From Mya arenaria (taxonomy: Eukaryota; Mollusca; Bivalvia; Myida; Myidae), in NCBI RefSeq assembly GCF_026914265.1, contig NC_069130.1, positions 76,615,070 to 76,679,069 of the forward strand: a stretch of 64,000 nt of DNA. The letters run 5' to 3'. Shown here in pieces: positions 20,942-64,000 of this stretch. The translations under genes and the position numbers were made by a program. The notes under the pieces were generated by a model. It had not been told where the DNA came from, made no database searches, and saw only the letters and a list, made by a program, of their open reading frames with translations. Each line of letters starts with the position of its first letter. The stretch's first letter is position 1.

Positions 20942-20946
<5 letters not shown>

Positions 20947-21515: not shown

Positions 21516-22209
21516 AATGAATTATTAATTATTAATACATATGTTTTCCCTCTTTTTTTCAGGTTCACGATATTGTTTTAAACGTTTACCTGCACTCCGT
21601 GTGTTTTCTTATAAACATCATGCTTCAGTCAACTTACTCTCGGGGCTGTCATGAGACACTCTGGCCAATTATCAAGCAACGGCCCGGCTTTGCCATGTAT
21701 TAACCTCTAAAAACTGCTAAAACAGCATCATTAACAGCGAAATTGGTGGAGACAAGTGATCTCTTTGAACAGAACATGTATACAAAGAAGAAAATCACAA
21801 GATTTAAGTGTGTTGCACCTAGTCTATTATCATCAGGCTCTAACTGACCAAGGGGCGTACAAATATTTTAGGGCAAAGTGGTGGGACTTACAAAATGTTA
21901 CGCTTTATGATTTCATAAACATTGCGTCATTTCAAAGTGAATATCAAAAATGTGTTTACTCGTAAAAATAAAAATGGCGAAGGTAGATTTACCCCGTTCC
22001 ACAAGCGGATCCAGGGGGTGGGGCACCTGGCGCGCGCACCCCTAAAATCGTCCAAGTTTTCTTTTAATTTCAATATGGTCCTAGGGGCTAATGTCTGGGG
22101 GGGGGGGCAATCATCCGGGGGGGGGATATCATCCTACACTCGTACTTTCGGACTAGAAATGTTAAAAAATAACGTCAGATCCTGAAGCCGCCCTGCTATA
22201 GGCTTTCAA

Positions 22210-22370
22210 ATTCCTCTTCAACACCAGGGGTGGTGGTGTGCTGAGTGTAAGTACCAAGAAATGTATGGTGGAGTGTTACATTACTAGTAATACTACAATG
22301 GGGATGCGGTTGGGTCAAACTATATTGCAGCCAATGGGTGCAGGCAGACCGTATTCTAAAACCACCATAT
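22210..22370 (+). mobile_element. SINE-tail-like fragment in duplication copy 2
   Basis: Same fragment as at 11700-11862. It pre-dates the duplication and is missing from copy 1 because of that copy's internal ~500-bp loss. Confidence 0.5.
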
Positions 22371-23515
22371 TAGCAGTTTTAAAACAACCAGCTGAAATTC
22401 ATTTCAACTAGCACCAACAAATAACACTCATATTAAAACAAAATAGGTCAGTAAATCATGAACACATTTATTACAAAATAAAACATTTTTCATACATATA
22501 TACAGAAAAAAATGGATGCCTTTTAAATGCTATGAAATGTACATGATTCATTGTGGTTTTTCTACAGATCTCTTTTCACTGGATCAATAAAGATACGTCA
22601 CTTAACAGTGTGAGGAGTCATTGGGGACCAGTTACACTGGCATTTCGTGAAACAAACAGAAAATAAACAGAACAAATCTTAAATGTATCTTTATACAACG
22701 CACTATTGTAAGTGGTCAGAACTAGCACATGTCAGTTATCCCTACACTGGTAAAATGTATTCAAGGCTTATCAAATTCTGGATTCTATACAGCATGGGGT
22801 GTTGAAAGATGCTGATGCCAGCACCTCAGTTAGGATGTGTGGTGGTACATCAGAAAGTCTAACTTTGATGATTTGTTATGAACATGTGAACTTCTACTAC
22901 TGGATTGTGTTTTGTAACATGATTGTTGGATTCATATCTTTTCATCCGAGTTGTCGTCACAATGAAGGTGTTGTGAAATTAACCTTATTATAAACATGAT
23001 GTTCTTAGAGTTCAATCTTTTATCTATGAATTAATTTTAGCAGAGTTAAAACTCAAACATTCTCTTGAATCTGCTTCATGAGAGATTCATCACCAGCAAA
23101 TAAAGTGTACATACGTTGAAAAAACAACACAATTGGCTTCAAGTCTTCTATCTTCCAAGTCTGTATAACCAATTTCCCGAATGCCACAGTTCTTGGTAAA
23201 AACCCCCACAGATTTATTGCAATAACAGAGCCTGAATAAAATAAGAGCAATACCAAGTGAACGCAAAAGCTTGTCTTTTTTCAGTTGAAAAAGGGGCATA
23301 ATAAAGAGTTTTTAAAGGCAGCGTTATGGGCCTTGTGTACTGTCTCTGGCAGCACGTGTACCAAGTTTAAGTAGAATAACTTGAGAAAGGTTAAAGTTTT
23401 GGAATACTTCGCCTTCTTTTCTTAGAAAAAACAGAAAAGTTGAAAAAATGGCTATTGCCATGTTTATATAATCGGGCATGTGGTTATAATAGTATAATAA
23501 TGTCAGAATAAACTA

Positions 23516-23521
23516 TTTATT
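23516..23521 (-). terminator. Candidate SF3B4 polyadenylation signal
   Basis: AATAAA on the minus strand about 190 bp after the SF3B4 stop codon. The same hexamer is kept in the duplicate at about 15277. Confidence 0.45.
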
Positions 23522-23713
23522 TTGTTTTCAATGACTGCAGTTAACAAATATTGGCCAGCGTTTCCCTACTCCTTTATCCCTAAAACTGTCCGCATTCCCA
23601 GTTAAATAACCCTTAACAGACAAATTGCAGTGAAATCACCTTTGACCACATTATCTTTAAATCCTTCAAACTGCCTTTGTATCACAATCAAAATCTCTTT
23701 TTAAAGTCTTAGC

Positions 23714-39980: not shown

Positions 39981-42900
39981 GGTACAGGGTGATACAGGAA
40001 TCCAGTGCATTTCACGTGACATCAAATCAAAACGTGAAATCCACTCAGAACTAAGTTATTTTAATTAATAATTATTATTTTTTGTATACATATTGGAAAG
40101 TGCCTCATAAAGAGTTATCATTTCAATTTTATTGAAATTGGTCAAAAAAATAAAGAAGTTAGAGCAATTTTTCATTTTTTTTCAAAAATAGATCGGAAAT
40201 CGAGGTGAAATCCAGATTTCGATAAGTGAAATCCACTCATAACTCATTAATTTTAATAAATAATTTTGTGTTTTTGAATACTTATTAGAAAGTGCCTCAT
40301 AAAGGGTTGATATTTCAAATTTTATTGAAATTGGTCAAAAAATGAAAAAGTTAGAGCAATTATTCGAAAATAGATCGGAAATCGAGGTGAAATCCAGTTT
40401 TCGAGAAGTGAAATCCACTCCTAACTCATTTATTTTTTACAAATTATTTGTTTTGTTAAACAAATAATTGAAAAGGCTTCATAATGGGTTTATATTTCAA
40501 ATTTTATTCAAATTGATCCAAAAATAAGAAAGTTGTAGACCTATTTTGAAAAAAGATCGGATATCGAAGTGAAATCCACATTTTGACAAGTGAAATCCAC
40601 TTTTTCAGACGTGAAATCCAATCATAACTCATTTATTTTTAACAAATTATTTTTTTGTTGAACAAATAATTGAAAAGGCATTATCATAGGTTTATTTTTT
40701 AAATATAAATGGAATTGGTCCAAAAAATGAAGAAGTTAGATTAATATATTGAAGATAGATCTGAAAGCGAAGTGAAATTCCCTTTTTGAGAAGTGAAATC
40801 CAATATTTGGGAAAGAAATCTACTAAGTGTAAAGAAATAATTTCAATCAAGTATCTTTATATTAATACAGTAGTAGTTTGTGTCCGATGATTATATTTTA
40901 ATGTTTTATTTACTTACATAATTAGTATCATTTAATCCGTTTTAGTCGTGATTTCTTATATAACATTAGATCTAATATCTGAATCAGTTGATGCAATATT
41001 TTGGTGTGTTTTTTACTTTAAGTAATCACTATCCAATATATTAGTTCTATAATTTCGTTTAATAATTACTCTTGTCTTTGATCTATATCTATCAAAGACG
41101 AGGATTACGACTCTCACGTGCCGATACCGTCGCGCCTATCGCACTTAGCGGTTAAGGTGATACATCAAATATCCGAGAAAGTTGACATAACATACTCGGC
41201 TGTAAAATTAAAGAAGTTTAGTACAATGGCAATAATTATTTTATGCCGAAAAAGAATTTGAGATGATATGGAAAGTATAAAATGTATCAGAAATGGCAAT
41301 TGTCATTGCTATGTTTTTATTTTTTATGCTATGAACATTTAGTGTTGGATATACGTATAATTTGATATTATTTTTATAAGCACATTTGCGAACTATTATT
41401 ACTACAACAATAAATATTACTTACATGTATTTTTTTATATAAATGTTATAATGTTAACAGCTAATCGTTTGAAATAACATATTTGAAATATGGATTGAAA
41501 TTAGTCCTGTAGCTTTTCGCATAAATATTGATAATATTACAGTTTTTGTAGAACAATTAACGTATCACTGTTGAAATATTTATTGAAATTTAATGTCATT
41601 TATTTGAATACATGGTCTAACTTTTTTATAAGCATATTTAAAATCAATTTAAAGCAAAATATTAATGAAAATATAAATCGACATGAAATTTATAATAACT
41701 AACATCACAATAATTGCTTTTAGCTCGTATTAATCTATGAAATTACGTAATATGTTTCCTGATGGCGTGAAAGTATTTAATGTGTCCTTTGTTGTTGTAA
41801 TGCACCATGTCACTGTGATAGTCCTTTTTAAATCTAATGTCCTTCATTTCAATGCATTGTACACTTTTTCGAACAAGATTATTGATGCGTTTTCTATGGG
41901 CATTGAAGCTTCCCCTTTCTGTTATGTATGTGAAATATACCTTTCCACATCCATTGTGTTTCAGTTGTTTAGAGATACTTATGATATGATAAGCGATCTT
42001 TTGTGCATATATTTCTCTTTGGGTGTCCGGTGATGGGTGTGCTCACGCCGAGAATCACTATTGAAGCCCAGCACGGGTGGCAGTGAACACCCTCACGAAT
42101 TATTCCATTTTAAATTTTTCACATGGGGCTATGTTCAAAGTTTATCTGTGTATATTTTTTCATATTTTGCCATTGTTTATTTTGTGTAATTATTTTCCTT
42201 CACTGTTGTGAACATACCTTTTCATTATCTCTCATTATTGTAAACCAAGTTAAACATATGATTTCACTTGGTGTAACTTTGTTCTGTTGTATTTGTTTGT
42301 TTCTTCTTCTTTTTTAAACTTTATGATTACGTATATCAACCAATGTGCATGTAAAAATAACCATAAATAAATGGCTGGCATAAACAAATAAAACAAAACA
42401 ATTTTCGGATTATTTATTAATTTTTTAATATTTTCAAAATTCGAAAGTAAAAAAGGGCCAAAATTGAGGGCGCCTCCACGTGGTATGGCCTGGATGTGTA
42501 TGGATATTGTGTTTATCATGAAAAAAAACAAAACAATTATGCATACACAACAAAACGCCCTCAAAATATAGCTTCAACTTTCTTATTTTTGGATCAATTT
42601 GAATAAAATTTGAAATATAAACCCATTATGAAGCCTTTTCAATTATTTGTTTAACAACAAAAAAAAATGTTAAAAATAAATGAGTTATGAGTGGATTTCA
42701 CGTCTCAAGAAGTGGATTTCACTTGTCAAAATGTGGATTTCGCTTCGATTTCCGAAAAATTGCTCTAACTTCTTCATTTATTTGATATATTTCAATAAAA
42801 TTTGAAATGTAAACCCTTTATTAGGCACTTTGCAAAATGTATACAAAAAATTAAAAATTACAAATTAATATAACTGAGTTAGGAGTGGATTTGACTTCTC

Positions 42901-43322
42901 GAAAACTGGATTTCACGTCGATTTCCGATCTATTTTCGAAAAATTGCTCTAACTTCTTCATTTTTTGACCAATTTCAATAAAATTTGAAATATCAACCCT
43001 TTATGAGGCACTTTCTAATAAGTATACAAAAACACAAAATTATTTATTAAAATTAATGAGTTTTAGTGGATTTCACTTATCGAAATCCAGATTTCACCTC
43101 GATTTCCGATCTATTTTTGAAAAAAAATGAAAAATTGCTCAAACTTCTTTATTTTTTGACCAATTTCAATAAAATTTGAAATGTAAACCCTTTATGACGC
43201 ACTTTCCAATATGTTTACAGAAAAATAATAATTATTAATTAAAATAACTGAGTTCTGAGTGGAATTCACGTTTTGATTTGATGTCACGTGAAATGCACTG
43301 GATTCCTGTATCACCCCGCACC
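39981..43322. mobile_element. 3.3-kb non-autonomous transposon with ~0.8-kb inverted arms and 10-bp target duplication
   Basis: The left end ggtacagggtgatacaggaa and the right end (minus strand ggtgcggggtgatacaggaa) are inverted and stay alike for about 0.8 kb inwards. Each arm consists of about four ~185-bp subrepeats that alternate gtgaaatccactc, gaaagtgcctcataaagggt and tttattgaaattggtcaaaaaa. Direct repeats ggctaaatac lie at 39970-39979 and 43323-43332. The central 40.83-42.54 kb has no convincing ORF. Long arms with a 9-10-bp duplication fit Mutator-like or foldback elements; no transposase is present. Confidence 0.85.
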
Positions 43323-43434: not shown

Positions 43435-46400
43435 ATGGCTGCAGACACAGGTACATTTTATTAACATTCATTTCTGTATTTGTATCAATGTAGATTTTTT
43501 TGTTACGAATATTTTGTACAGGCGAGTAGTTACTGGACAGCAGTAGTTCTCGGACAGTCGCGATTTTCACCTCATTTTTGAAGTTACATATGAAACGCTT
43601 CCAACTATAAATCGGGTGCTAAAAATGTCTTAGCAGATAACTGGGAGTAGGATTTGTTATTGGTCCCATCAGATAACAACAATTTTTATCAGGTAAGGAT
43701 TATACTCAGAAGTCTAATAACAAAAACAACAATAAAAATTGGACTTCTTGTGCAAGCAATTTTACATTTGTATCAAGAAAATCTAATTTCATAAATGATT
43801 TCAAAAACACGCCTTTGTAACCGTCGTGCGTTTATAGAATAACATTCCGTTATAGACAGAAGTACGTTAGAAGTACGTATGTTTACTTGGTTGGTAATAT
43901 GCAAGTTAGCAAAGCCTGAGCTCCGTGTGGATTGAGATAAACTGTATATAAAGACCAGTGGACACCTTCAGGGTTGAGCATGCTTTTTTTCTGAAGGGAT
44001 CTGTTGGCCTTGTTTGGCCTCACACGGTACACCTTTAACAAGGAGGTGGTGGTGTGTGTGTGTGTGTGTGTGGGGGGGGGTCGAAATCCCATGTAAATGA
44101 TCCATCAACCGGTCTCCAGGCAGGGGACAAATATCAGCTAGACTCTCAACAGTAAAAACAACAAAAATCCACCAAAAGATTCTTCATTTCCCCTAAAGGT
44201 ATAAATATAACCAGGCTTAAAAATAATGATAGGGGAACTTTTTTAAGTACTAAATCACCAGAAGTTTTAATTTGATTATTAATAATAAGGTCGCTGAAAT
44301 GGAGTTTTCTTTAAGCATTTTTGGGAAGAAGTAAAATATAATAACATAAACTTGCGAAAGGGCTCTCAAGCCTTTAGGAAGAGTTTGCACCGTTCGTTTT
44401 TAACACATTTTTATGGGAAGAGCAGAGGTTATTGTACGTTTTTATAAGTTTAAAACAAATGAAACAAAATTGAATTTGGTTTTCATTTAAAATGTTAGCA
44501 TTGCCCATAGTTCGTGTTTAAATATGATTTGTTATGTTTGTTTCTATTAAAAGATATTCCGAAAATCACAATTGAAAGTAACAGGTGTCAAACACATGTT
44601 CAAAGTTTAAAGCACATGGTTGAAAATCTCATGTTCGTGTGGAAAATTCCCATAAACGTCCCTAGCTATTTTTAAACACCTATAATAAATATCATATAAA
44701 TTAATTAAACGCTACGTTGAATACAATATATTATTTATTCACATTTACACACGTATAGAGGGCGTTCGAAATTTTGATTAGACTATGTGCGAATAAGGTG
44801 ACAATAGCATCTGACAACTTACACAATTGCAAAACATAATTTTCAGTGATCAAACTACGTTTTGAGTACGAACCGTGTGATTTGTAAGTTACAGAACGAG
44901 TTTCTACAAGTTTAATAAAATTGACTAGAATCTTTATAGGAAGGGACAAAGAAATAGCCGTTTGAAAATTGACAACTACTTAAATTACCTTAATTACAGT
45001 GAAGTAACATTTTTCAATGCTGCTTTTAGCGTTGACTCAACGGGGAGAAACGTGGGAAAAATTATAGAAATGAATGCCGTGGGCGATATGCTTATATTGC
45101 AGGGTATAGTGGAAACAAGATTAACAAGATAACGTTCGCGGGAAGGAAAAATCACGGCAATAAGTAAATTCTGAAAAAACCCTGTGGTTTGTACTGTGCC
45201 TTATTCCCTTCAATTTCAAATGGATGTTCATACATTAAATAAGTAATGTATGACGCCATGGAAAAAGTTCACTCATTCATGGCATGGCTCTACATATGCT
45301 GAAGAATTTATGCATAAAATCCAAAACATTATGAAAGAGATATATCGCATATGAGGAAATTAAAAACACAAACTGTTTTGTATATACAAAGTCAAGTAGC
45401 AGTACTAATGCCAAGAGCTCATTTTTTTTTCATTTCCTTTCTTTTGTAGTTATTAAATAAACTTCAAATGAGGTTTCAACTACTGACTTATTGACAAAAA
45501 TTGGATGCATATTCCCTAAGACCATATTCAAAATTCAACTTCTGGCTGAAAGAAAACGGACAGACAGATAATTGGATGGACGGACTGACAGACATCTTGC
45601 ATTCTCTGCTCATTTCTTACTAAAATAAATTATAACTAAGAAAATTAGCTCTGACCAAATGCAGATGATCTATTTCTGAAGGAAAAACAAAAAAAATAAT
45701 TTCTGTAATAGATTACATTGATGTATAATTGATGGACTTGTAAACAATGGATACTTATCCTTCTTTAAGGACTTGTGAATAATCTTTTGCTACTTTCACA
45801 ATCTTTTAATGGTCTTTATCTTCCTTTGGACTTCTTAAGTTTATGATAATCAATTGAAATTTTTATCAGTAAACAAAGTTAGTAGTTTAAAATTTAACCT
45901 AGTAACTGTAAGAAGTCAAAAGTCTGTGAAGTGGTAATGATATTTGTATAAATATATTTGTTGTCTTGCAGCATTATGTTAGTCTTCTTCAATGTTTGAA
46001 GACTTGTAGAGTTGCATGTCTTTTCCAATGTATTGTGTGTTGTCTTGTAGCGTTGTCAGTCATTTTTAATGTTTGTTGTCTTGTTTAATGTTTGTTGTCT
46101 TGCCGTGTTGTAAGTCTTGTTTAATGTTTGTTGTCTTGCCGTGTTGTAAGGCTTGTTTAATGTTTGTTGTCTTGCCGTGTTGTAAGTCTTGTTTAATGTT
46201 TGTTGTCTTGCAGTGTTTTAAGTTTTGTTTAATGTTTGTTGTGTTGCCGTGTTGTAAGTCTTGTTTAATGTTTGTTGTGTTGCCGTGTTGTAAGTCTTGT
46301 TTAATGTTTGTTGTGTTGCCGTGTTGTAAGTCTTGTTTAATGTTTGTTGTCTTGCAGTGTTGTAAGTCTTGTTTAATGTTTGTTGTGTTGCCGTGTTGTA

Positions 46401-49400
46401 AGTCTTGTTTAATGTTTGTTGTCTTGCCGTGTTGTAAGTCTTGTTTAATGTTTGTTGTGTTGCCGTGTTGTAAGTCTTGTTTAATGTTTGTTGTGTTGCC
46501 GTGTTGTAAGTCTTGTTTAATGTTTGTTGTCTTGCAGTGTTTAAAGTTTTGTTTAATGTTTGTTGTCTTGCCATGTTGTAAGCCTTGTTTAATGTTGTTG
46601 TCTTGCCGTGTTGTAAGTCTTGTTTAATGTTTGTTGTGTTGCAGTGTTTTAAGTCTTGTTTAATGTTTGTTGTGTTGCCGTGTTGTAAGTCTTGTTAAAT
46701 GTTTGTTGTGTTGCAGTGTTGTAAGTTTTGTTTAATGTTTGTTGTGTTACCGTGTTGTAAGACTTGTTAAATGTTTGTTGTGTTGCAGTGTTATAAGACT
46801 TGTTAAATGTTTGTTGTGTTGCTGTGTTGTAAGTCTTGTTTAATGTTTGTTGTCTTGCCGTGTTGTAAGTTTTGTTTAATGTTTGTTGTGTTGCAGTGTT
46901 ATAAGTTTTGTTTAATGTTTGTTGTGTTACCGTGTTGTAAGACTTGTTAAATGTTTGTTGTCTTGCTGTGTTGTAAGTTTTGTTTAATGTTTGTTGTGTT
47001 GCAGTGTTGTAAGTTTTGTTTAATGTTTGTTGTCTTGCCGTGTTGTAAGTTTTGTTTAATGTTTGTTGTGTTGCAGTGTTATAAGTTTTGTTTAATGTTT
47101 GTTGTGTTGCTGTGTTGTAAGTCTTGTTTAATGTTTGTTGTCTTGCCGTGTTGTAAGTTTTGTTTAATGTTTGTTGTGTTACCGTGTTGTAAGACTTGTT
47201 AAATGTTTGTTGTGTTGCAGTGTTGTAAGTCTTGTTAAATGTTTGTTGTGTTACCGTGTTGTAAGTTTTGTTTAATGTTTGTTGTCTTGCAGTGTTATAA
47301 GTTTTGTTTAATGTTTGTTGTCTTGCTGTGTTGTAAGTTTTGTTTAATGTTTGTTGTGTTACCGTGTTGTAAGACTTGTTAAATGTTTGTTGTGTTGCCG
47401 TGTTGTAAGACTTGTTAAATGTTTGTTGTGTTACCGTGTTGTAAGACTTGTTAAATGTTTGTTGTGTTACCGTGTTGTAAGACTTGTTAAATGTTTGTTG
47501 TGTTACCGTGTTGTAAGTTTTGTTTAATGTTTGTTGTCTTGCAGTGTTGTAAGTTTTGTTTAATGTTTGTTGTGTTGCAGTGTTGTAAGTTTTGTTTAAT
47601 GTTTGTTGTCTTGCCGTGTTGTAAGTTTTGTTTAATGTTTGTTGTGTTGCAGTGTTGTAAGTTTTGTTTAATGTTTGTTGTCTTGCAGTGTTGTAAGTTT
47701 TGTTTAATGTTTGTTGTCTTGCAGTGTTGTAAGTTTTGTTTAATGTTTGTTGTCTTGCAGTGTTATAAGTTTTGTTTAATGTTTGTTGTCTTGCCGTGTT
47801 GTAAGTTTTGTTTAATGTTTGTTGTGTTACCGTGTTGTAAGACTTGTTAAATGTTTGTTGTGTTGCCGTGTTGTAAGACTTGTTAAATGTTTGTTGTGTT
47901 ACCGTGTTGTAAGACTTGTTAAATGTTTGTTGTGTTACCGTGTTGTAAGACTTGTTAAATGTTTGTTGTGTTACCGTGTTGTAAGACTTGTTAAATGTTT
48001 GTTGTGTTACCGTGTTGTAAGTTTTGTTTAATGTTTGTTGTCTTGCAGTGTTGTAAGTTTTGTTTAATGTTTGTTGTGTTGCAGTGTTGTAAGTTTTGTT
48101 TAATGTTTGTTGTGTTGCAGTGTTATAAGTTTTGTTTAATGTTTGTTGTCTTGCTGTGTTGTAAGACTTGTTTAAAGTTTGTTGTCTTGCCGTGTTGTAA
48201 GTTTTGTTTAATGTTTGTTGTGTTGCAGTGTTATAAGTTTTGTTTAATGTTTGTTGTCTTGCTGTGTTGTAAGTTTTGTTTAATGTTTGTTGTGTTGCAG
48301 TGTTATAAGTTTTGTTTAATGTTTGTTGTGTTACCGTGTTGTAAGACTTGTTAAATGTTTGTTGTGTTGCCATGTTGTAAGTCTTGTTTAATGTTTGTTG
48401 TGTTACCGTGTTGTAAGACTTGTTAAATGTTTGTTGTGTTACCGTGTTGTAAGACTTGTTAAATGTTTGTCGTGTTGCTGTGTTGTAAGTCTTGTTTAAT
48501 GTTTGTTGTCTTGCCGTGTTGTAAGTTTTGTTTAATGTTTGTTGTCTTGCTGTGTTGTAAGTTTTGTTTAATGTTTGTTGTGTTGCAGTGTTATAAGTTT
48601 TGTTTAATGTTTGTTGTGTTGCTGTGTTGTAAGTCTTGTTTAATGTTTGTTTTCTTGCCGTGTTGTAAGTTTTGTTTAATGTTTGTTGTGTTACCGTGTT
48701 GTAAGACTTGTTAAATGTTTGTTGTGTTGCAGTGTTGTAAGTCTTGTTAAATGTTTGTTGTGTTACCGTGTTGTAAGTTTTGTTTAATGTTTGTTGTCTT
48801 GCAGTGTTATAAGTTTTGTTTAATGTTTGTTGTCTTGCTGTGTTGTAAGTTTTGTTTAATGTTTGTTGTGTTACCGTGTTGTAAGACTTGTTAAATGTTT
48901 GTTGTGTTACCGTGTTGTAAGACTTGTTAAATGTTTGTTGTGTTACCGTGTTGTAAGTTTTGTTTAATGTTTGTTGTCTTGCAGTGTTATAAGTTTTGTT
49001 TAATGTTTGTTGTCTTGCTGTGTTGTAAGTCTTGTTTAATGTTTGTTGTGTTGCAGTGTTGTAAGTTTTGTTTAATGTTTGTTGTGTTGCAGTGTTATAA
49101 GTTTTGTTTAAAGTTTGTTGTCTTGCTGTGTTGTAAGACTTGTTTAAAGTTTGTTGTCTTGCCGTGTTGTAAGTTTTGTTTAATGTTTGTTGTGTTGCAG
49201 TGTTATAAGTTTTGTTTAATGTTTGTTGTCTTGCTGTGTTGTAAGTCTTGTTTAATGTTTGTTGTCTTGCCGTGTTGTAAGTTTTGTTTAATGTTTGTTG
49301 TGTTGCAGTGTTATAAGTTTTGTTTAATGTTTGTTGTCTTGCCGTGTTGTAAGTTTTGTTTAATGTTTGTTGTGTTGCAGTGTTATAAGTTTTGTTTAAT

Positions 49401-52400
49401 GTTTGTTGTCTTGCTGTGTTGTAAGTTTTGTTTAATGTTTGTTGTGTTGCTGTGTTGTAAGTTTTGTTTAATGTTTGTTGTCTTGCCGTGTTGTAAGTTT
49501 TGTTTAATGTTTATTGTCTTGCAGTGTTATAAGTTTTGTTTAATGTTTGTTGTCTTGCTGTGTTGTAAGTCTTGTTTAATGTTTGTTGTCTTGCCGTGTT
49601 GTAAGTTTTGTTTAATGTTTGTTGTGTTGCAGTGTTATAAGTTTTGTTTAATGTTTGTTGTCTTGCTGTGTTGTTAGTTTTGTTTAATGTTTGTTGTGTT
49701 GCAGTGTTATAAGTTTTGTTTAATGTTTGTTGTCTTGCTGTGTTGTAAGTCTTGTTTAATGTTTGTTGTCTTGCAGTGTTGTAAGTTTTGTTTAATGTTT
49801 GTTGTGTTGCAGTGTTATAAGTTTTGTTTAATGTTTGTTGTCTTGCTGTGTTGTAAGTCTTGTTTAATGTTTGTTGTCTTGCAGTGTTGTAAGTCTTGTT
49901 TAATGTTTGTTGTCTTGAAGCATTGTGATTCTTGTTTTTTTTTAGCATTGTGTGTGTTGTCTGGTGTTGGTTGTCTTATTTGGTATTCTGATTGGTCATG
50001 GTCCATGCACCTTCAAAGAGGATTTTGGTTATGTTTTAGGCTAAGTAAAAGGCTTGTGCCTGAGTTTTTTATAGTTTACCCCAGAGGAAAATATGTGCAT
50101 GTTAATGCAAATACCGACAGTGGTAAATCAACCCATAAGGTAGGCAGAGTTTGGTAGTACATAGTTGACAAATGAACAAAAAGTAAAGAAAAGAAATTGT
50201 TATAAATATAACTTCATTTATTCTATTAACCTTTGTTTTTTTTAAAATGCACAGCTGACTGTTTCTACAAAATACTAAAATGTTTGAAATACCATGTTTA
50301 TGTCTGATAAATTATATTGTTTTGAGGTTAGGCTATTGTGTCTTTCTTTGAGACCTTTTTCTATCAATTTGAAATGTTAAACCTTTAAATACGTTACATT
50401 TAAAGCTATCACACTCCTATTTCAGCTGCTAATTTTGAAGTTATCAACCTTAAACTCATTCATGATTATTTATTTTTGGAATGAAACAGACACGTACAGT
50501 TTAAATGTGTTCTGTCAGTATGACAAAATATAGACATTTCATCCTATTAATTTCCGAAAACTACTACAACATGATATTGCCCTGTGAATAAGTGTGGTAT
50601 TAATTGCAGATATATAATATATATCTGACGTACATTTAAAGTAATATCAGCTTCATCATGATGTTTATTCATAATGTACTTTCAACTATTGACATTTTAT
50701 CAAAAATATATGTAATTCTCAATTGCCATAAAAAGACAACAGAAAATACTTTAGGGGCAAATTTGCCCAAATGAGTGTATTTGCCCCTGGGGTAAAATTT
50801 GCTCCATAAGCATATATATATTCAGCATATGAATGCTACAATAGGTTTAATATAATGTTTTGACTAAAGATAAATGATGATGTCTGCTATACATGTATTT
50901 GTGGAACATTTGATTACATTCAGCCGTCATCAAAAGTGAACCCATGAGTTGCCAAAATTGGAGCAGTAAAATGTAGTATGTTTTCATAAACATGTTGTCA
51001 TAAAACTATTCATTTTACTTCATGTTATAATGTAAGCCGTGACAGACAGAAAAAGGTCATTGTAGTATATTGCTTCAAGTCAATTCATTTTATTAAAGTA
51101 AACAAAGGCCAGTTTTGTTATGCCAGTTTTGGACGAAACAGTCAATTAACTGTTGTCTAAAAGTATATATAAATAGATCTAAATTTCCTACATCTTGAGC
51201 AATCCAAATGTATCCAAAACCGTATGTGAAGAACAAAGATTTAATATTGAATGCCCAACAATTCCACCCGACGTCATCTAGTGATTTTAACATTTTGTAG
51301 CAGTGTTTAGGTTATCTATGATTAGACATGGTTAATAGCTTACACCAGTGTTTAATGCAGTTGACTATATTGCTACTATATTTAAACACCTTTAATCGGA
51401 AGTCATGGGGAGCCTGATCAAAACTTCAGATTAACGATATTTCGGATAAACAATTATTAGAAAATTATAAAAAAAATGACAGCATTTGTAAATTATTGGT
51501 GAAGTAAATTATTTAGTTGTGAAAATTGCAATGTCAGCTACTCGTTGCCAACATGTTCAGTACGCCTGCACTAAAAATAAACTCAGTTTACGCAGTATCA
51601 TTTGGGTTATTTTTTAAAGAATGATGTGATGTCTCCCTGCACTTTGTTTTCATACTTCTCCCGGTAAGGTTTTGAATGGTGGCACCATTTAACACCCTTC
51701 CCTTTCACTTCTGATCTAGTTATCATCCTGGGTTTGTTAGCGGCCCTTCTGCAGATTGTTTGGCAGCGGTTTTAGATAGACACTTCAAATGATGTTCAGA
51801 TTGTGTAAATCAGCCATTATATACAAACTACACCACCCAAAATAAATCGCTTACTATCTGACATGTGTGTTGTTTTAGCTGTTTTGACGAAGCCTTTAAT
51901 GCTTGTGTGTGTTTTCAGATCTGAAGCGTCAGAGACCCCGTAATGTGAAGTTTGCGGCTGGACCTCCCCCTGTGGACCCCATGAAGAGTTACATCAACAC
52001 CGGAGATGAGGATCAGATGGTATATTATTGTTCATTGACCTTGTTTTATAAATGTGTTTTTAGCTCTACTGGCCAAAGGCCAGAAGAGCTTATGCGATGG
52101 TAATGTGTACGTAGTATGTTTGTCCGTGCGTCTGTAAACAATTGCTTGTGAACACGATACCAGCCAGATCCGCCCATGCATGCCTAGATTATGGCCCTTG
52201 AAAGTATAAAAAAAGCTATTGTGTAAACAATTGGTTGTGAACACGATACAGTCTTCAGTTTTGATTGTATCTCGATGAAACTTATACAGTATTTAGATAT
52301 CCATTAGAGCTCGATTCCTTTTGAAAACCAGCCAGATTTGCCCATGCATGCCTAGATTATGGCCCTTGATAGTATATAAAAATGCTATTGTGTAAACACT

Positions 52401-54041
52401 AGCTTGTGAACACGATACAGTCTTCAGTTTTGATTGTATCTCGATGAAACTTGTACAGTATGTAGATATCCATTAGAGCTCGGTTCCATTCGAAAACCAG
52501 CCAGATCCGACCATGCATGCCTAGATTATGGCCCTTGATAGTATAAAAAAAATGGTATTGTGTAAACACTAGCTTGTGAACGCGATACAGTCTTCAGTTT
52601 TGATTGTATCTCGATGAAACTTGTACAGTATTTAGATATCCATTAGAACTCGGTTCCTTTTGAAAACCAGCCAGATTTGCCCATGCATGCCTGGATTATG
52701 GGTGTCACAATTTTCTTAGAGACTTATTTAAGAAATATTTTCAAAATCTTCTTGTTTCAAACCACAAGGCCACATACCTTTGATATTTGTTGTGGAGCAT
52801 CATATGTTGCAATTGAAAACATTTGAAAAAATGCCCCTTGGGCAAAAGCTGGCCCCACCCCTTTTGACTTACTTATTAATTTTTAAAGCTACAGTAATGA
52901 AATTTTGACCATGTGAACGGTTTTGCAAACAAGCATTAATGTTGTTCTCGGATGTCCTTGACTTTGACCTTTGACCGACTTTTTATTTTCAAGGCTACAG
53001 AAATGAAATTTTGATGATGAGTACAGTTTTAAAAGCAAATATTTCTTACCCTCAGAATATCTTTACTTGGCAAATATTAAAATAGTTCATGCAACTAATC
53101 TGCTTACAACACTTCCTGTCCTCAGATGTTGAACGTGCAGCGTTTTCAGCTAACCCAAACACTAAAAGTGAACTATATATTTGTTGCCTATTACTCAAAC
53201 GTACATGCTCTGGATTGAAAATGACCACAAGAGCCATGCCAGTGGAGCATAGGCCCTTTTGGGCCTCTTGTTTTACAGTAGACTGGTTTAAAATAGACTG
53301 GTTTAAAAAAAAAAAAATCTACAGCAGACTGGTTTATGATTTATCTGAAATATAAATAATAATTATAAAAGTAATATAATCTTTGTTTTAAGAGGGTTAC
53401 ACATGAAGTTATACATTTATACAAACATAAGAACTTCAAACAATAATAAAGAATGCACATAATGAAATCTGAAAACAAAACAAACTACATGCATACTATT
53501 AATGACTCCCTATTACTAAAGCATCTTACTGCAACAATACAGAGACTTTATACTATATATATATATATATGCACACTTTAGGCAGCTTTTCACAGGTATA
53601 ACATATGTGCTTATATGTGCATACGTTCTTGTTGATACTAACAGGAACTGTGAGACCTGCTGTTAGAATAATAAATTTCCAAAAGTCATCAAATTAATAT
53701 ATAATATACAATGTTACAAAATTGATGCTATTTTTTGCACTGGATGGTCTGAATGTTTGTTTGTTCATTGCAGGAAGTGGAGTGCTTCACTGTGTCCCGG
53801 TTGAGACAATATCTCGTGTATTGCGCAATATTTGGGACTGTAGGGCTGCTCCGGCTGCTGTTTCATTGGCTGCCTCACTGGTACATCCGGGCAACACACA
53901 GGAAGTGCAGCATTGCAGAGGCAACTCATCTCCTGTTGAAGGTACTGAACAAATAATACACTCTCTTAACACGTCGTCTATTTTTAGCTCCACTGGCCGA
54001 AGGCCATGGAGCTTATGTCGTCACAGATTGTCCGTCGTGAG

Positions 54042-54101: not shown

Positions 54102-57100
54102 TAAACTTTTACTTTAAACGACATCTCCTCTGAAACTGATAAGCGGATTTTGACAAAACTTCACAGGAATGTTCCTTTGGTGGTCCTTTACCAAAATTGC
54201 TCAAATGGTTCCGGTTCATTGCACAATATGGCCGCCAGAGCTAAAAATAGCAAAATCTTTAAACGACATCTCCTCTGAAACGGTTCGGCAGATTTTGATG
54301 AAACTTGACAGTAATGTTCCTTGGGTGGTCCTTTATTAAAATTGCTCAATTGGTTCTGGTCCATTGCACAATATGGCCGCCACAGCTAAAAATAGCAAAA
54401 TCTTTAAACGACATCTCCTCTGAAACGGATAGGCAGATTTTGATGAAACTTGACAGAATTGTTCCTTGGGTGGTCCTTAACCAAAATTGCTCAAATGGTT
54501 CCGGTCCGCTGCACAACATGGCTGCCAGGGCAAAAAAATAGAAAAACCTTTAAAGAACATCTTCTCAGAAACCGATGATCAGATTTTGATGAAACTTAAT
54601 AGAAATGTTCCTTGGATGGTCCTTTATCAAATTTGCTTCAATGGTTTCGGTCCACTGCACAAGATGGCCCCCAGAGGTAAAAATAGAAAAACCTTTAAAC
54701 GACTTCTCCTCAGAAACCGATGATCGTATTGCAATGAAACTTGACAGAAATGTTACTTGGGTAGTCCTTAACCAAAATAGCCCAAACAGTTCTGGTCTGC
54801 TGCACAACATGGCAGCCAGAGCTAAAAATAGGAAAAACCTTTACACCACTTCTCCTCAGAAACCGATGATCAGATTTTGATGAAACTTGACAGAAATGTT
54901 CCTTGGGTGGTCATTAACCAAAATTTGTTAAATGGTTCCAGTCCACTGCACACCATGGCTGCCAGAGCTAAAAAATAAAAAAAACTTTATACGACTTGTC
55001 GTCGAAACCGATGACCTTTTTTCGATAAAACTTGACAGAAATGTTTGTTTGGTGCTCCTTTACTCAAATTGCCCAAATCATTTCGGTCCACTGCACAACA
55101 TGGCAGCCAGAGCTATTAAAGTAAAAAATTTTTTTAAATAACTTCTCCTCAAAAATTGATGATTGTATTTCTATGAAACTTGACGAAAATGTTCGTTAGG
55201 TGGTCTTTGCTTGAACCTTTTGGCCAGTGGAGCACAGGCACTGATGTGCCTCTTGTTTAAAGAAAACAACAACAATTATTGTGATAACCTTGGTTTAATT
55301 GTCAGCAATGTGCTTATGTTTAGCATGCCAATAGCTCTGGCTTCAATAGTTGTTGAGGTATGCTCCTTGATGGACAGATCGAGAGGTGAATGCGGAAAAG
55401 TTATAAGTGACATTTAATAAAGAAGAAGATAGGACCTTTTCGCTTTCACCCCTCGACTGATGATCGTTGGCATCTGATTGTGGTGCTTTGTTTAGCTCAC
55501 TTGAGGACTATGTTGTTATGATCTGGTTTTTTATTCTTCAGCTCTTTGCTTGTTAACTTAAGTTAAACATGAATTCAGGCATATTTTGAAGTACAATTGT
55601 CACTTGACTTTCTTTTTAAAAATCTCAAAACAAAAACTAAATAATTAATGATTGGGTTATTGTAGATCTTAGTGATATATATTATTTATTTCAGGATCAA
55701 TATGAACAGTGGTTTGTTGCTAAGGTACAGACTATCACCAAGGATGGAACCAGGTAGAGTCTCTGTTTCCTGTTATACATGCTGATCATAAAACTATGGA
55801 AACTATGGGGACAAGCTGAGGCTCCAGTTTCTTGAAATCTTAACATTAAAGTAGCTTATTTTACTTTTGTGTCTTTGTGATTATCATAAACAAGTGCCTA
55901 TTTTAAGTATAAAATCACTAAAAAAGTAAAAAAAATACACAAATTACAATAATATTGAGATTAGCTTAAGCCTGTTTCCTGTTATAAGGGACTGAATAAG
56001 TTTCAATAAATTGGGGCTCTAGTCAAAATTTAACCAAGATTTTTTAAATGCACAAAGATCAGAGCCAGAAAAACAATGTACCCAACAGCACAAATCCACA
56101 AACGATTTACACCTATAACACTGTTAGTAGCTGTTTGGGTAACTGCCTTGGCACGGTCAGTGTAAACTCACTGGAGAAATCATGGATAGTTTGTTGCCCA
56201 CCACCCTTTTTCTTAAATCTATGAGCACATAATGTTTGGTAGAAAGTTGCCCTTTCTACACCTGCTTTGGCCCCTCTAAATCAGTGATAGAAAAAGGAAC
56301 GCTTGAAAGCCTGATTCAAACATGGGCTTTAAAAAATTGTTCAGATTTTGTTTGGATTTTGTGATATGTTAATATATTCGGGCTGGTTCAAGAAATTTTA
56401 TTTTTGCTTAATTATGGAAGTCTTGCATTCTTTAACTATGCTACGACTTTGAATTATTTTTTATTTATTTTTTAAAATGCACAGTTAACACAATACATAC
56501 ATGTATCAGTGGCCCTATTGATTTATTAAATTAAATCTCTCCTGCCCATCCTAACTCTATTAGATTCTACTGTGTAATTCTTGCATGATATGAATGAGCT
56601 ATCGACTTAAACAATGAAAATAGATCTAAAATAATTTAATAAAAAAAAATCATGCTAAGATGTTCTATTTTCCAGAGTGACAGTGTTGAAGCCATCAGCA
56701 TCGTTCACACTGTCAGGAGCGTCAAAACGTAAACGAGCCCAGTTGCTTCTCAATACAGGACAGGTAGGAGCAGACAGAATAATGAATAACATACTGATAC
56801 AGTATGCTTAAAATAAGTAGATGATGAGAGATGATACAATGTCAATGAAACAGTTAAATGAGCTGCTGGTTATCATGCAAACGACAAGCTGAATAATTGT
56901 TTTAGCTGTATAAGTATGCAAATAGATTCTCTGTTATTCATGATTATTATTAGCATAATAATCCACTGTGTTGGATCTGCAAGTTATAGATAAAGAATGA
57001 TACCTTAATAAAGTTTAATAAGATCTAATATTATGGGATTGTGTATTCACAAAAAAACTTCATTACACAGTCCAGACTCGCTAAACTACTGTGCGTTTCA

Positions 57101-60100
57101 AAATAACAAACTGTCATAATTGGAGGGTATTTAATAATTTTGACAAATTAAAGTTGTTTGGTTTTGTTTTTGATTAAAGAGGCATTTATTGTACAAGAAA
57201 CATTTATTGAAACGCATGAGGACGCCGGTGATATCATGGGAAAATCGACAAAAGGGAAAGTTACGTGATGAAGTGATGAAGAAATTTCTCTACACTGCAT
57301 ATGGAAAGCAAACTTTTTTAAACCAATTAATTGAATTGAATTAAATAAATTTGACACAAATAAATCTCTTTTTTACTTTATTTTTGAATAATACGTTTGC
57401 TGTTATCACCAAGATAATAAGTAACAAGACCATTCAATTGCAGAAGTCCGACATCGGACATAGATCAAACTCAGATGTGTTGGGTTTGGTGATATCTTTT
57501 TCTTGTAATTCGGATGTGTCGAATGTTCGTTATGTCGACTTTTTTCCCTAGGTCCCAACAAAGTCGACATAACGAGTTTTGACTGAACGTGTATATGTAT
57601 TGTGAACAGTGTTAGTTATTATGATTCAGCAGCAGACAATAGTATAAAACTGGATAACTCTTTGGTTTGGTCCAAGTTAGCCAAAATGTTCATTGATTGG
57701 TCAATATTTGTCCGATAATTACTACCGACCAATCAAATAATTTATATGTGCAAACCAGCCAAAAGATAACCTGTGGACAACTTATCTAAGTTTTATTCAA
57801 CTAGCTGCAGAAATTTGTCTTCTATTTAAAAACAGGTTGATAAAAAAGATAACATTTATCTACAAGCATCAGTATGTATTACATTCTTGTCTCATTACCA
57901 GCTAGCCAAATGTTTCCCTTTGTGCACCTGTATACATTACAAAATGCAACAGAATCCACAATTCAAATGTATCCTCCCATATTATGAAAATTATCATACA
58001 CATGTAGTTATATTTGATTCCTTAAGCATTCCTGTTTCTGTAAACTTGTTAAATAGTTCGATATATAGGTATATATACCTGACCTTACAAGCACAGTAAT
58101 TCATTTTGATGGACCGTTTTTATCATCAGTATACATATCAAAAACTATATAAACCAGCTAGGCTACACCAAGTGAATTCTGTGTTGAGCATCTGGTTTCA
58201 ATTTCAAAAGACGATTTTTTTTAGATTTTTTTTGAGACAACAATAGAAAAAAACAAATATTTTCTTTGTAACAAGTGCCATTGAATGATTTGTACAATGA
58301 AAATCATACAGGAAGTTTAATTATTCCCTTATGCACCAGTCAATTGTAACAACGCGCCCCCTCATACCCCTGATGATAAGAGTGCCCCATATTTCAACAA
58401 TATCAGTGTATCAGATGATTTAATTTGCCTCAATCTTATACTTTATTTTGAAACATGAAAATTTATTGATACTGTTCCGGAAAAAGATACCTTCACACTG
58501 AAAGTAGATGTGTAGAAAAAAAAATTATTTGATTGCCAGTTGTTTCAAAAATGTCTGTTTGTTTAATTTTGATGCTAATGTGCTTGCAGAAAGATGAGAA
58601 CTTGATTCGCTACTTTGAGATCAAACGTGTGAAATATATCTGGAATTCTGATGAGGATCGGTACCAGAAACTTAGGTGGGTGTTCACATGAGGTTGCTGC
58701 TAGTTGAATTATTTTGTATAATTGTATGCTTTTTGGTTATTTCTTAAAATTAATCAGTGAAATAAAATGATATTTCACTGTATGTAAATGACGTTACATT
58801 CATGTTGATACAATATGGCATGTTTTTCAGAAAAACTACTATTAGCTGTCTTTATATATCCTTTCTAGAAAGAAAAAAATGGTTGCTTTAGTGTAAGATT
58901 GCAATATATTTCACCTTGTGAACACTTTTGGTGCTTGTTCGGTGAAATTTCTGAAGATCTTACATTCAAGCAAACAGTTATCCTCTATATATTCTTTATA
59001 ATTTTTCTCGGTTCCTTAGAAACAAGGTTTGAGGTACTGTAATAGCTGTATTCTTACTTGTTCAGTCAACTAACTGTGACAATGTCATGCCAAAGTTCAG
59101 TGTTCCGTGGTAAAATGAAAACATTAGATTTTAAAAATGCTAAATATAAAAAATGCCCATAGAAGTGTAGCATTTAGAGACACAAAACATTGAAATAACT
59201 TTGCTCACTATGGCTCCTCTAACTAATGTATTTTTGTACCCACTACCAATAAATGGTTTGGTTTGGCAGCATCATTTCTACAACGAAAAGATTTGGATTA
59301 TGGAACTTATTTGTCAGTCAGGTTTTTCATGTTGTAGCCATGGCAACAAAACTTTAAGAATACAACAAGAAAATCATTCATAAACAGTTATGTATGTTTT
59401 GTTCCAGAGGTCTGGAGGCCAACAGTACATGTTCATACTTACACGAGGCGCGAGGTCTGACCTTCGAACACCAAAGGAAAAGGTATGTAAAAGAGACTTG
59501 CTCATGTTTTTTTTTTAAATGCACTTTTTTGTATGACAATGAAGTGTTGCAATTGGAATTGTTAAAAACTAAGATACTTCTGCTGGAACCCTTCAACAAT
59601 TGTTGAAACATGTATATGCCCAAATATTGTCTTTGAAGTCGAAAGTAACGATTTTCAACAAATGGCTAAAGGTTAAGTTATCTTAATCTTTGTGTGTGAG
59701 TCTTTGTGGGCATGGGGATTTGTTTTTAGTTTTCTATTTTTTTCTTAACCGGCATCGGTTTCCTCCCCACTAAAACTTTTTTATACTTACAGTGTATTTT
59801 TTCCTGCATTTTTGTGTCGCCTGAAAAGATGACATATAGGGGTTACTTTTGTCGGCGGCGGCGGCGTCCGCGTCCCATTTTCGCTTGTCCGGGGTATATC
59901 TCCTAAACTATTAGTGGTATCAACTTGAAACTTCATTTAAGGAATGAATTGCGGGGTTGATGTCATTATCGGGGTATGAACGCAATTGGGTTGGTCAATG
60001 TGTGTGGAGTCCGAAGGACTCCACGCGTACTTTGACCAACCCAATTGCGTTCATATCCCCGATAATGACATCAACCCCGCAATTCATTCCTTATATTTAC

Positions 60101-63100
60101 ACCACTAGTTCATTATTTCATTCGAGAATTGTTAAAAAAATACTTTATCTCATTTAAGAAAACCTTTCAGTAATCTGTTCTTACCCATTCTGTAAATAGA
60201 ACGACTCGACTATAACCGGAAACTTTTTTCAAATGACGTCACAATAACGCGGGAAAAGATCAACCACTTGAAATCACTTTAAAACATAAAATTGAAACAC
60301 TTCTGGTACCAATATATTTAAAATATAATAAACTAACACTTTTAAAAATGTTGATCTATATTTTACGGGACCTGCAGACACAATACAACCAATAACAAGA
60401 TCAATAGCTTTCATATATATTGTTATGCAATGAATTACGATCCGAACATATCCGAAGATATTGCGTTCATCGATTGATGAACGCAATTGCCGAAAAGCAG
60501 TTCATTTAAGGAATGGAAGTTGAGGTGTAAATATATGTAGATAGATCTAATTGAGGGCAAGTGCAGTGCACAAGAACTGTTGCTCTTGCTTCCATATTTT
60601 TTAGAGTTATTGCCCTTTGGTATTTTTCATGCTTAAAGTTTTGTCCGGGGCATATCTTGTACAATATAAGAGTTATCAACTTGAAACTTCATATGTAGAT
60701 AGATCTCATGGAGGGCAAGTGCAGTGCACAATAACAGTAACTCTTGCTTTCTTAGTTTTAAAGTTATTACCCTTTGTTAATTTTCATGCTTAAAGTTTTG
60801 TCCGGGGCATATCTTGAAGAATATAAGAGGTATCAACTTGAAACTTCATAGCTAGATAGATCTCATTGAGGGCAAGTGCAGTGCACAATAACAGTAACTC
60901 TTGCTTTCTTAGTTTTAAAGTTATTGCCCTTTGTTAATTTTCATGCTTAAAGTTTTGTCCGGGGCATATCTTGAAGAATATAAGAGGTTTTGTCCGTGGC
61001 ATATCTCGTAAACTATAGGAGGTTTCAACCTGAAACTTATTCCGTAGGTATATCTGATTGAGGGTTCAAATGCCACCTACACTTGAAAGTTAAATGGCAA
61101 CATCATTGTCTATAAATGAATAAAATGCCAATCTAACAGCTATAATGTCGACAGTAAATAATTCGTCAGGCGACACATCCGACTCGCGGAGTTCTAGTTG
61201 GTATTAAAGAGTAAAAAAGTGATTTTATAAGTATTTCTTATGCATTACCGGGAAAGATGTAGAAACGAGTGCCTTTTAAAGTCAATCTTAACAAAAAATA
61301 AAAATAATTAACATTTGTTTATTTTTATCATTTAAATTGAAAAAAGATTACAAAATTATGTTGGAATTGATTTAAAACATTCTTATGTATATATTAAGCA
61401 AACACTTTGATCTTTAACGATCATCTGGCCATTTTACCAATGATTGTACAGCAAGATATTTTTAGATAAAAAAGATTCAATTGAATATTATGGTTAGCAA
61501 GTGTCAGAAATATAATTATTATGTTTTACTTATAAATCTTTATTAAATCTCTCCATTTTGTTTGTATTTTTGTTTAAAAATATACGGCTTTAAAAACATA
61601 TAATAAACAATTGGAATAATTTATCGTAAGAGGTGGGCGATGGTCAATGGCCCCCACATGTGTAATTTTATCTTTTTTATGTAGACTACCGGTATATCTC
61701 TTCCTTTTGTTATAGGTTTGATAAGTATGTACAATTGTTCACTGATTTTTAGCCAGATTTTACATAAAAATATTCACGTTCCTAGATTGGCAAAAACTTT
61801 TGGGATGGGAATGGGAGGCGGGAGGTCATCGTTAACAATTTTGTAGTGAATATTTTTTGTCTATTTCATAAATACATCAGTTTGTATCTGATCTTGTAAA
61901 TCAAGTGGGAAAATGGGTCTAAGTAAAATATTAAAACAACATTTTGGGTTGTTTTTTTTTATCTTCCTTTCATAAATTCAACAATGTTTATCTAATCTTC
62001 AAGATGCTCAGCAAGATATTTAGGACTGGTCAGTGTTGAAATGGTTGGACTGGTCAGTGTTGAAATGGGTCATTTGGGACAAAATCTAGGTCAGCAACAT
62101 TTACATTTTCATCTATTAACATACACGGTGCTGTAAAGTTGCATTTGTTAAAATAAATTAATCTGGCTTTAATGCAGTTTCTGCATTTACCCTTGTGTTT
62201 CGTATTATATTTTGAACTGTTTATTTGTCTGTTTTATGTTTGATTTTTTTCTAGTTTTCTACTATTTACATATCGTTTATGATAAATGATAAAAAAGAAA
62301 ACAAACTGAATATAAATAATTAATGACATTAAATTATAAGTTACTAGTATTCTGCTTATTTGCAATTGTTCAAGTGGCTCATAACACAATTAATTTGAGA
62401 TAAAAACTTAATGAGCACATGTTTATTATTTGTTAATATTTTTAGACTTATTTTTATGAATGTTTTCCAAGATACTTTTTGTTATAGCAGGAATAGCAAG
62501 TGGTGTAGGTGTGCACATTTAACCTAAGGTTGTGTACTCAAACCCCCATCAGGGGTACTTTCTCAGAGCTTAACAAAATGGACGTCAATATTGGTTTCTC
62601 ACCGAGAAACAGACTCTGTTCGATCTTCACAATCCATCTATCTAAAAGAAATTGGTATAAACGGTAATCACGACTTACTGAAGACTAATACTGCTTTTTC
62701 ATTGCCTTAACGCAAACTTTTAATCTAAATATACAGGTACAGCAAAATGTAATACATAATTAGTTGGTTCCATGAATAATGGCATTGAATATTTCAGGCG
62801 AGTCCTGTATGGCAGTAACGCTATTGATGTCCATGTATCCCCCGTCATATCTCTTCTGTATATTTCAGGCGAGTCCTGTATAGCAGTAACACTATTGATG
62901 TCCATGTATCCCCCTTCATTTCTCTTCTGTATATTTCAGGCGAGTCCTGTATAGCAGCAACGCTATTGATGTCCATGTATCCCCCGTCATATCTCTTCTG
63001 TATATTTCAGGCGAGTCCTGTATAGCAGTAACACTATTGATGTCCATGTATCCCCCTTCATTTCTCTTCTGTATATTTCAGGCGAGTCCTGTATGGCAGT

Positions 63101-64000
63101 AACACTATTGATGTCCATGTGTCCCGCGTCATATCTCTTCTGTATATTTCAGGCAAGTCCTGTATAGCAGTAACACTATTGATGTCCATGTATCCCCCGT
63201 CATATCTCTTCTGTATATTTCAGGCGAGTCCTGTATAGAAGTAACACTATTGATGTCCATGTATCCCCCGTCATATCTCTTCTGTATATTTAAGGCGAGT
63301 CCTGTATAGCAGTAACGCTATTGATGTCCATGTATCCCCCTTCATTTCTCTTCTGTATATTTCAGGCGAGTCCTGTATAGCAGTAACGCTATTGATGTCC
63401 ATGTATCCCCCGTCATATCTCTTCTGTATATTTCAGGCGAGTCCTGTATAGCAGTAACGCTATTGATGTCCATGTATCCCCCGTCATATCTCTTCTGTAT
63501 ATTTCAGGCGAGTCCTGTATAGCAGTAACACTATTGATGTCCATGTATCCCCCGTCATATCTCTTCTGTATATTTCAGGCGAGTCCTGTATAGCAGTAAC
63601 ACTATTGATGTCCATGTGTCCCCCGTCATATCTCTTCTGTATATTTCAGGCGAGTCCTGTATAGCAGTAACGCTATTGATGTCCATGTCTCCCCCATCAT
63701 ATCTCTTCTGTATATTTCAGGCGAGTCCTGTATAGCAGTAACACTATTGATGTCCATGTATCCCCCGTCATATCTCTTCTGTATATTTCAGGCGAATCCT
63801 GTATGGCAGTAACACTATTGATGTCCATGTATCCCCCGTCATATCTCTTCTGTATATTTCAGGCGAATCCTGTATGGCAGTAACGCTATTGATGTCCATG
63901 TATCCCCCGTCATATCTCTTCTGTATATTTCAGGCGAGTCCTGTATAGCAGTAACGCTTTTGATGTCCATGTATCCCCCGTCATATCTCTTCTGTATATT
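43435..64000 (+). CDS. P5B-type P-type ATPase, ATP13A2/3-like, 5' part (continues past window)
   Basis: Exons 51919-52019, 53774-53941, 55695-55753, 56676-56763, 58590-58675, 59408-59482 and one starting at 62798 join in one frame with GT-AG introns. A tiny first exon, 43435-43450 (ATG to cag|gtac), is in the right phase but is less certain. The protein has an acidic KSYINTGDEDQM segment. A hydrophobic stretch with LLRLLFHWLPHWYIRA follows (the N-terminal membrane-inserted cap of P5B pumps). Then come EQWFVAKVQTI, RYFEIKRVKYIWNSDED and the RRVLYGSNAIDVHV block that precedes the first core transmembrane helices in this family (YGxNxI). ATP13A2/A3 export polyamines from endolysosomes. The catalytic DKTGT lies beyond the window. 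Intron 1 (8.5 kb) carries a giant minisatellite, and introns 2, 3 and 7 carry mobile elements. Confidence 0.85.
43451..46063. other. Left part of ATP13A-like intron 1
   Basis: AT-rich with no gene recognised. It contains a (TG)n tract near 44048-44071 followed by a G run. If exon 1 at 43435 is wrong, this is simply upstream sequence. Confidence 0.4.
46064..49920. repeat. Giant 36-bp minisatellite (~107 units)
   Basis: The unit ttgtttaatgtttgttgtct + tgccgtgttgtaagtc varies at a few fixed places: ctt/gtt, gcc/gca/gct/acc, tgt/tat, gtc/gtt/gac, and ttgtttaatg/ttgttaaatg. Variants recur in blocks, indicating higher-order amplification. Because 36 is a multiple of three, long frames stay open on both strands (up to 574 codons of a 12-residue TQQTLNKTYNTA-type repeat on minus, LMFVVLPCCKSC-type on plus). 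These are not believed to be genes. Confidence 0.97.
49921..51918. other. Right part of ATP13A-like intron 1
   Basis: No gene or recognisable element seen. AT-rich sequence ending in the ttttcag acceptor of exon 2. Confidence 0.4.
52060..53274 (+). mobile_element. Helitron-like non-autonomous element A (pearl/HINE-like) in ATP13A-like intron 2
   Basis: It starts tagctctactggccaaaggcc. Near the end lies gccagtggagc (53238-53248), the inverse of gctctactggc with one mismatch. A terminal hairpin aggcccttttgggcct (53251-53266) and cttgttt follow. Inside are about three ~165-bp tandem units (gatacagtcttcagttttgattgtatctcgatgaaact). A subterminal inverted repeat, a 3' hairpin, internal arrays and no ORF match bivalve pearl elements / Helentron-associated elements (family knowledge). 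Confidence 0.7.
53985..55258 (+). mobile_element. Helitron-like non-autonomous element B in ATP13A-like intron 3
   Basis: It starts tagctccactggccgaaggcc. The 12-bp gctccactggcc (53987-53998) has its exact inverse ggccagtggagc at 55222-55233. A hairpin aggcactgatgtgcct (55236-55251) and cttgttt follow. About seven ~145-bp tandem units (ctcctctgaaacggat...gatgaaacttgacagaaatgttcc...cactgcacaacatggc) fill the body. The ends match element A, but the body repeats are unrelated. Confidence 0.75.
54036..54102. repeat. (GTGC)n microsatellite inside element B
   Basis: About 16 units of gtgc/tgcg lie just inside the 5' end of element B, before the first ~145-bp unit. Confidence 0.95.
57528..57574. 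repeat. 15-bp hairpin in ATP13A-like intron 5
   Basis: cgttatgtcgacttt (57528-57542) is inverted as aaagtcgacataacg (57560-57574) around a short loop. It may be the end of a small DNA transposon remnant; no partner or target duplication was found. Confidence 0.5.
59815..61197 (+). mobile_element. Helitron-like non-autonomous element C in ATP13A-like intron 7
   Basis: tgtcgcctga (59815-59824) is exactly inverted as tcaggcgaca (61166-61175). After it come a short hairpin gactcgcggagtt and the terminus ctag (61194-61197) followed by T, which meets the Helitron CTRR-T end rule. The body has about three ~153-bp units (agttttgtccggggcatatcttgaagaatataagaggtatcaacttgaaacttc). A palindromic insertion interrupts it at 59940-60515. 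Confidence 0.7.
59940..60515. mobile_element. Palindromic (foldback) insertion nested in element C
   Basis: ggaatgaattgcggggttga...gtgtggagtc is followed, after cgaag, by its near-perfect inverse (about 59941-60088, arms ~70 bp). The text ttcatttaaggaatg occurs at both edges (near 59932 and 60502), consistent with insertion into one body unit of element C. Confidence 0.6.
61198..62784. other. AT-rich intron 7 remainder
   Basis: No gene or clear element recognised. A partial duplication, ggactggtcagtgttgaaatgg, occurs twice near 62025-62070. The text at 62520-62600 (aaacccccatcaggggtactttctcag) resembles the 15840-15900 intronic flank of SF3B4 and may be a shared repeat. Confidence 0.4.
62791..64000 (+). 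repeat. 71-bp tandem array of a splice acceptor plus P5B ATPase exon start, at least 17 units
   Basis: The cag of the tatatttcag acceptor recurs every 71 bp from 62795 to 63931, with one unit at 63292 reading aag instead. After it each unit has gcgagtcctgtat[ag]gcagtaac[ga]ctattgatgtccatgtatcccccgtcatatctcttctg. Read from the first unit in the phase set by exon 7, this encodes RRVLYGSNAIDVHV, the conserved P5 ATPase block. The array runs off the window edge. Since 71 is not a multiple of three, read-through shifts frame at each unit and meets TAG in the third frame of most units. Confidence 0.93.

Follow-up and report, generated by a model that had tools for sequence, protein, structure and literature searches.

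A 71-bp minisatellite across an intron–exon boundary of an ATP13A3-like gene in Mya arenaria

The 3' end of an intron in an ATP13A3-like gene of Mya arenaria, together with the start of the exon that follows it, occurs as a 71-bp tandem array of at least 17 units. Arrays of this kind have already been described in amphioxus, so that the present one is unusual but not unprecedented. We consider it probable that this is a minisatellite of the 'mirage' type, placed where the intron ends, that its last acceptor is the one spliced, and that the array is largely neutral. All coordinates refer to the stretch of 64,000 nucleotides that was analysed (the window).

The array and its host gene

Six upstream exons and the 62 exon nucleotides of unit 1 (Table 1) together encode 212 residues, 211 of which are identical to the best full-length relative, P0002, the NCBI 'polyamine-transporting ATPase 13A3-like isoform X2 [Mya arenaria]'. 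The lone mismatch is a Gly in unit 1 where P0002 has Ser, and the corresponding block of P0002 is encoded exactly by units 3, 9 and 10. Family, structure and homologue searches used a 173-residue query that includes unit 1, with one exon absent and another shortened. This peptide matches PF12409, the P5-ATPase N-terminal family (E 4.2e-20, 72.6 bits, cut-off 22.7), and TIGR01657 (E 9.6e-11, 39.9 bits, under its full-length cut-off), as well as ATP13A2 structures; a 74-residue piece gave no match in Pfam. Judged by sequence, the host of the array is a gene for an ATP13A3-like P5B ATPase, a polyamine transporter, in keeping with the ATP13A-like identity proposed in an earlier sequence-only reading of this DNA. 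We note that P0002, by eye, is without the stretch around GDGANDCGALK that is present in P0003–P0005, and this isoform may be no active pump. Also, P0001, the 197-residue NCBI isoform X2 of Ruditapes philippinarum, stops exactly at the end of the exon (EHQRKR) that precedes the array junction in Mya.

Table 1. Positions of the ATP13A3-like exons, the array and two of its units in the window.
Feature	Position	Strand	Remarks
ATP13A3-like exon, first visible in window	51919..52019	+	identical to P0002
ATP13A3-like exon, first membrane segments	53774..53941	+	
ATP13A3-like exon	55695..55753	+	
ATP13A3-like exon	56676..56763	+	
ATP13A3-like exon	58590..58675	+	
ATP13A3-like exon, last before the array-terminated intron	59408..59482	+	donor AAG|gtatgt scores 9.5
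71-bp array	62789..64000	+	17 full units and 5 bases, continuing past the window
Unit 1	62789..62859	+	Tyr-Gly-Ser-Asn retained; acceptor score 4.58
Unit 8	63286..63356	+	acceptor TTTAAG replacing TTTCAG; score 4.47

TRF describes the array as 17.1 copies with 96% matches and 0% indels, and its autocorrelation at 71 is 0.96, compared with a maximum of 0.29 across 200 shuffles. Cutting it every 71 bases gives the full units listed in Table 1, the array running off the end of the window. The sequence-only reading had given its span as 62791..64000; the run past the window stands, and the start lies two bases earlier, at the point where similarity to the end of the unit stops. The array edges show no bases in common. 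Each unit joins the final 9 nt of the intron to 62 nt from the start of the exon, and the intron part reads ATATTTCAG except in unit 8, which has ATATTTAAG instead. The units read CTT CTG TAT, and since Phe is encoded by TTT or TTC, unit and exon diverge after CTTCTGT, which fixes the exon part at 62 nt. The acceptor AG is kept in 17/17 units, bearing out the proposal that a host splice acceptor and exon start have been amplified together. Fourteen of the 17 units are distinct in sequence, with 12 of 71 positions variable and a mean pairwise identity of 0.96. Some variants are linked, such as a pair common to units 2, 4 and 8, and the mean difference between units hardly grows with distance. 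The RNA structure of three units in tandem is no more stable than that of shuffled sequence (z 0.73, with 157 of 200 shuffles matching its stability), and Rfam at its gathering threshold and a tRNA scan returned 0 matches in the whole window.

Eighteen arrays, hand-picked from 47 TRF rows with simple repeats and several short arrays omitted, occupy 9946 of the 64,000 bases (15.5%), and where repeats are this abundant it is not very surprising that an array should lie across one exon boundary. Several other features of the window may be mentioned here. A segmental duplication (11631–15971 and 20941–24203) is made up of pieces of 528 to 1719 bases with 97.5–98.7% identity that include 48-bp arrays at 13548–13790 and 21226–21516. 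A 36-bp array of about 107 copies (46081–49917) has long open frames on both strands, and three copies of a 63-bp unit (18885–19070; 21 residues per unit) lie within a minus-strand open frame at 18587–19144, possibly as a coding repeat. An inverted pair at 39987–40737 and 42576–43316 (88% identity) contains arrays with periods of 182–203 and 191 bp. Long open frames are also present at 5713–9912 (plus strand, 1399 residues) and at 2223–2924, 2983–3489 and 3503–4825 (minus strand); by eye, those in 2223–9912 resemble frames for the DNA polymerase B, the integrase and the packaging ATPase found in a Polinton/Maverick element.

Acceptors, reading frame and the Gly/Ser residue

Splice sites were scored with Shapiro–Senapathy-like matrices, the scores being relative only, and the window backgrounds include the array's own sites. 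Fifteen of the 17 unit acceptors score 8.70, inside the range of the six native acceptors of the gene (5.37–11.04), and 67 of the 3179 AGs in the window (2.1%) score at least as high, 15 of these belonging to the array. The acceptors had been regarded as equivalent, but those of units 1 and 8 score well under the others (Table 1). Pyrimidines make up 0.47 of positions -20 to -4 in unit 1 and 0.76 to 0.82 in the other units; it is the pyrimidine-rich end of each unit's exon part that serves the next unit, and each added unit therefore has its own 3' splice site. Among acceptors 1, 2 and 6, which were examined for YTNAY within 60 nt, a TTGAT with its A at -42 is found in 2 and 6 and none in 1.

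Unit 1 is in correct phase with the exon that ends at 59482, as the sequence-only reading held, and the same junction puts the other units in phase too. With the cut 17th unit excluded, stops occur in one of 16 units in the exon phase (few had been noted before), in none of 16 in the next frame and in all 16 in the third. Read-through from acceptors 1 to 15 meets a stop in 15/15 cases, where the next unit begins (TTTAAG) for acceptor 7 and in the second unit after for the other 14; from acceptors 16 and 17 the reading passes the window end. The unit length, not being a multiple of three, thus does matter for the protein as had been argued, and because acceptors 1–15 all meet stops the final copy is required for the annotated protein. 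By eye, the repeated block occurs once in P0002 and is followed by FKEALTPFYVF, so that the NCBI model would imply use of the last acceptor, past the window; this was one of the outcomes envisaged by the sequence-only reading. Two others fare less well: the mini-exon donor ccat|gtatcc is weak (0.47) and the resulting 37-nt exon would shift the frame, and there is no indication that function is lost through splicing, since the NCBI model contains a single block in frame. We rejected the idea that the array is an expansion of the protein itself, as one frame has stops in 16/16 units and P0002 has a single block; a blastp search of 121 proteins with a 110-residue probe, which has little power when the block is this short, found no second match. 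Nonsynonymous changes account for 9 of the 13 coding changes among units, against an expected proportion of 0.73, and on this sequence comparison the coding changes look unselected.

The residue following Tyr in the block is Ser in 12 of the 17 units, confirming the Gly-to-Ser change reported for most of them, Gly in four (units 1, 5, 15 and 16) and Arg in unit 7. Homologues were drawn from a set of 121 proteins that includes isoforms and paralogues, with one contributing listing giving the best 120 of 927; P0001 ends before this column, and among the 120 scored there are 116 with Gly, two with Ser (P0002 and P0087) and two with Asp. Apart from P0002, the annotated Mya protein with its Ser, Gly is therefore present in 116 of 119. 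Gly is likewise the residue of two Mya paralogues, P0049 and P0010, and unit 1 agrees with Dreissena across RVLYGSNAIDVHVSP. The presence in the annotated exon of the Ser that is in the majority in the array would point to a mutation within the array or to exchange between array and exon: the Ser could either have arisen in the exon and then spread, or have arisen in the apparently unselected array and been copied into the exon. An error in the model is a possible source of the Ser in P0002.

Competing explanations

The origin that we favour is a tandem duplication of 9 nt from the intron together with 62 nt from the exon, after which the array would have expanded and become partly homogenised. 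Splicing would link the exon ending at 59482 to the acceptor of the final unit, past the window, the only unit that the rest of the exon would follow, and the units ahead of it would act as intron. We infer that RNA is spliced at the last acceptor, that this is due to exon definition and that the array is nearly neutral. Against this reading, earlier acceptors score as high and are transcribed first, so that some use of them is expected. Were upstream acceptors used frequently and the stop-bearing transcripts degraded, array length could set the amount of protein; the 15 of 17 well-scoring acceptors are compatible with this, as is the stop that every one of the 15 testable acceptors reaches within two further units, but the single block of the NCBI record argues otherwise, as do amphioxus mirages, reported without disturbance of splicing (PMC3087553, PMC3902484), and we regard such tuning of expression as unlikely. 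The array could also be much shorter in the animal, or absent from it, mis-assembly being frequent for tandem arrays, and one amphioxus mirage seems to be aberrantly assembled in the draft genome (PMC3087553). The number of distinct units and their linked variants speak against an artefact, and a published Mya genome, not necessarily the source of the window, used PacBio reads and Hi-C (PMC10663159); we think an artefact highly improbable.

A different fate for the repeats is suggested by the top donor-like site of the unit, the GC-type boundary CAG|GCGAGT, which scores 5.85 with the GC penalty included and falls inside the range of the six native donors (3.59–9.5). Only 15 of the 2174 GC sites in the window reach this score, and 14 of them are within the array. 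Any acceptor might then be used at the outset, with the boundary acting as a 5' splice site and GC–AG steps of 71 nt or its multiples leaving one copy in the mRNA regardless of array length, and a human UBC tandem array of dual-specific sites is spliced stochastically (PMC10809524). However, the hexamer may mean nothing, being largely dictated by the codons AGG-CGN-GTN; a 71-nt intron is short, with its branch-like site 42 nt ahead of the acceptor; units 15 and 16 carry GCGAAT (2.05); and the boundary is AGGC in 17/17 units rather than the AGGT of UBC, donor use in Mya being predicted only. Recursive removal of this sort thus seems quite unlikely, and we hold it to be very unlikely that such GC-type recursive boundaries form a self-correcting splice ratchet leaving one copy while exchange with array units also puts Ser in place of the conserved Gly in the functional exon. 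Splicing to the last acceptor across a largely neutral array is the reading that we retain.

Relation to known systems and significance

The closest parallels are the mirages of amphioxus, minisatellite-like tandem copies of intron–exon boundaries in Adh3, TnC and the globins BflGb6 and BflGb9, many of them with splice signals. Units are given as 10–72 bp for Adh3 and as 150–160 bp for BflGb6, one haplotype of which has 6 units and another 3, and RT-PCR suggests that regular splicing is undisturbed although many repeats hold AG/GT signals (PMC3087553); mirages are also named for Adh and TnC in a second source, where PGBD5 is likened to them (PMC3902484). The Mya array likewise comprises tandem copies across an intron–exon boundary. 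It differs in being in another phylum and another gene, in its at least 17 units as against the 6 and 3 of BflGb6, in its GC-type donor-like boundary, and in that the annotated exon bears the variant residue of the array. Other traits of mirages are inner units that are homogenised, with the edge units excepted, lengths that differ between haplotypes, and somatic instability. As to the edge units of the Mya array, unit 1 has a Gly that is also found in units 5, 15 and 16, and the 3' edge is beyond the window.

Human UBC resembles the Mya array as a tandem repeat whose boundary is potentially both acceptor and donor (PMC10809524), but UBC has 228-nt in-frame coding units with AGGT and the Mya units are 71 nt, out of frame, with AGGC. 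An intron gain in a potato RdRp gene similarly involves a duplication that spans an intron end and the beginning of the following exon and passes on the splice signals (PMC4974935); there one duplication gave a new intron, whereas Mya has many copies, with no new intron apparent. The literature searched, with most subscription journals outside it, yielded no report of this Mya arenaria ATP13A array.

The mirage reports that we found concern amphioxus, and an array of at least 17 units in a bivalve suggests that their occurrence is not confined to amphioxus. The Mya array lends itself to testing how one acceptor is selected by the spliceosome from many that are nearly identical, whether GC-type recursive splicing takes place, and whether exchange with repeat copies under no selection can alter a conserved coding residue.
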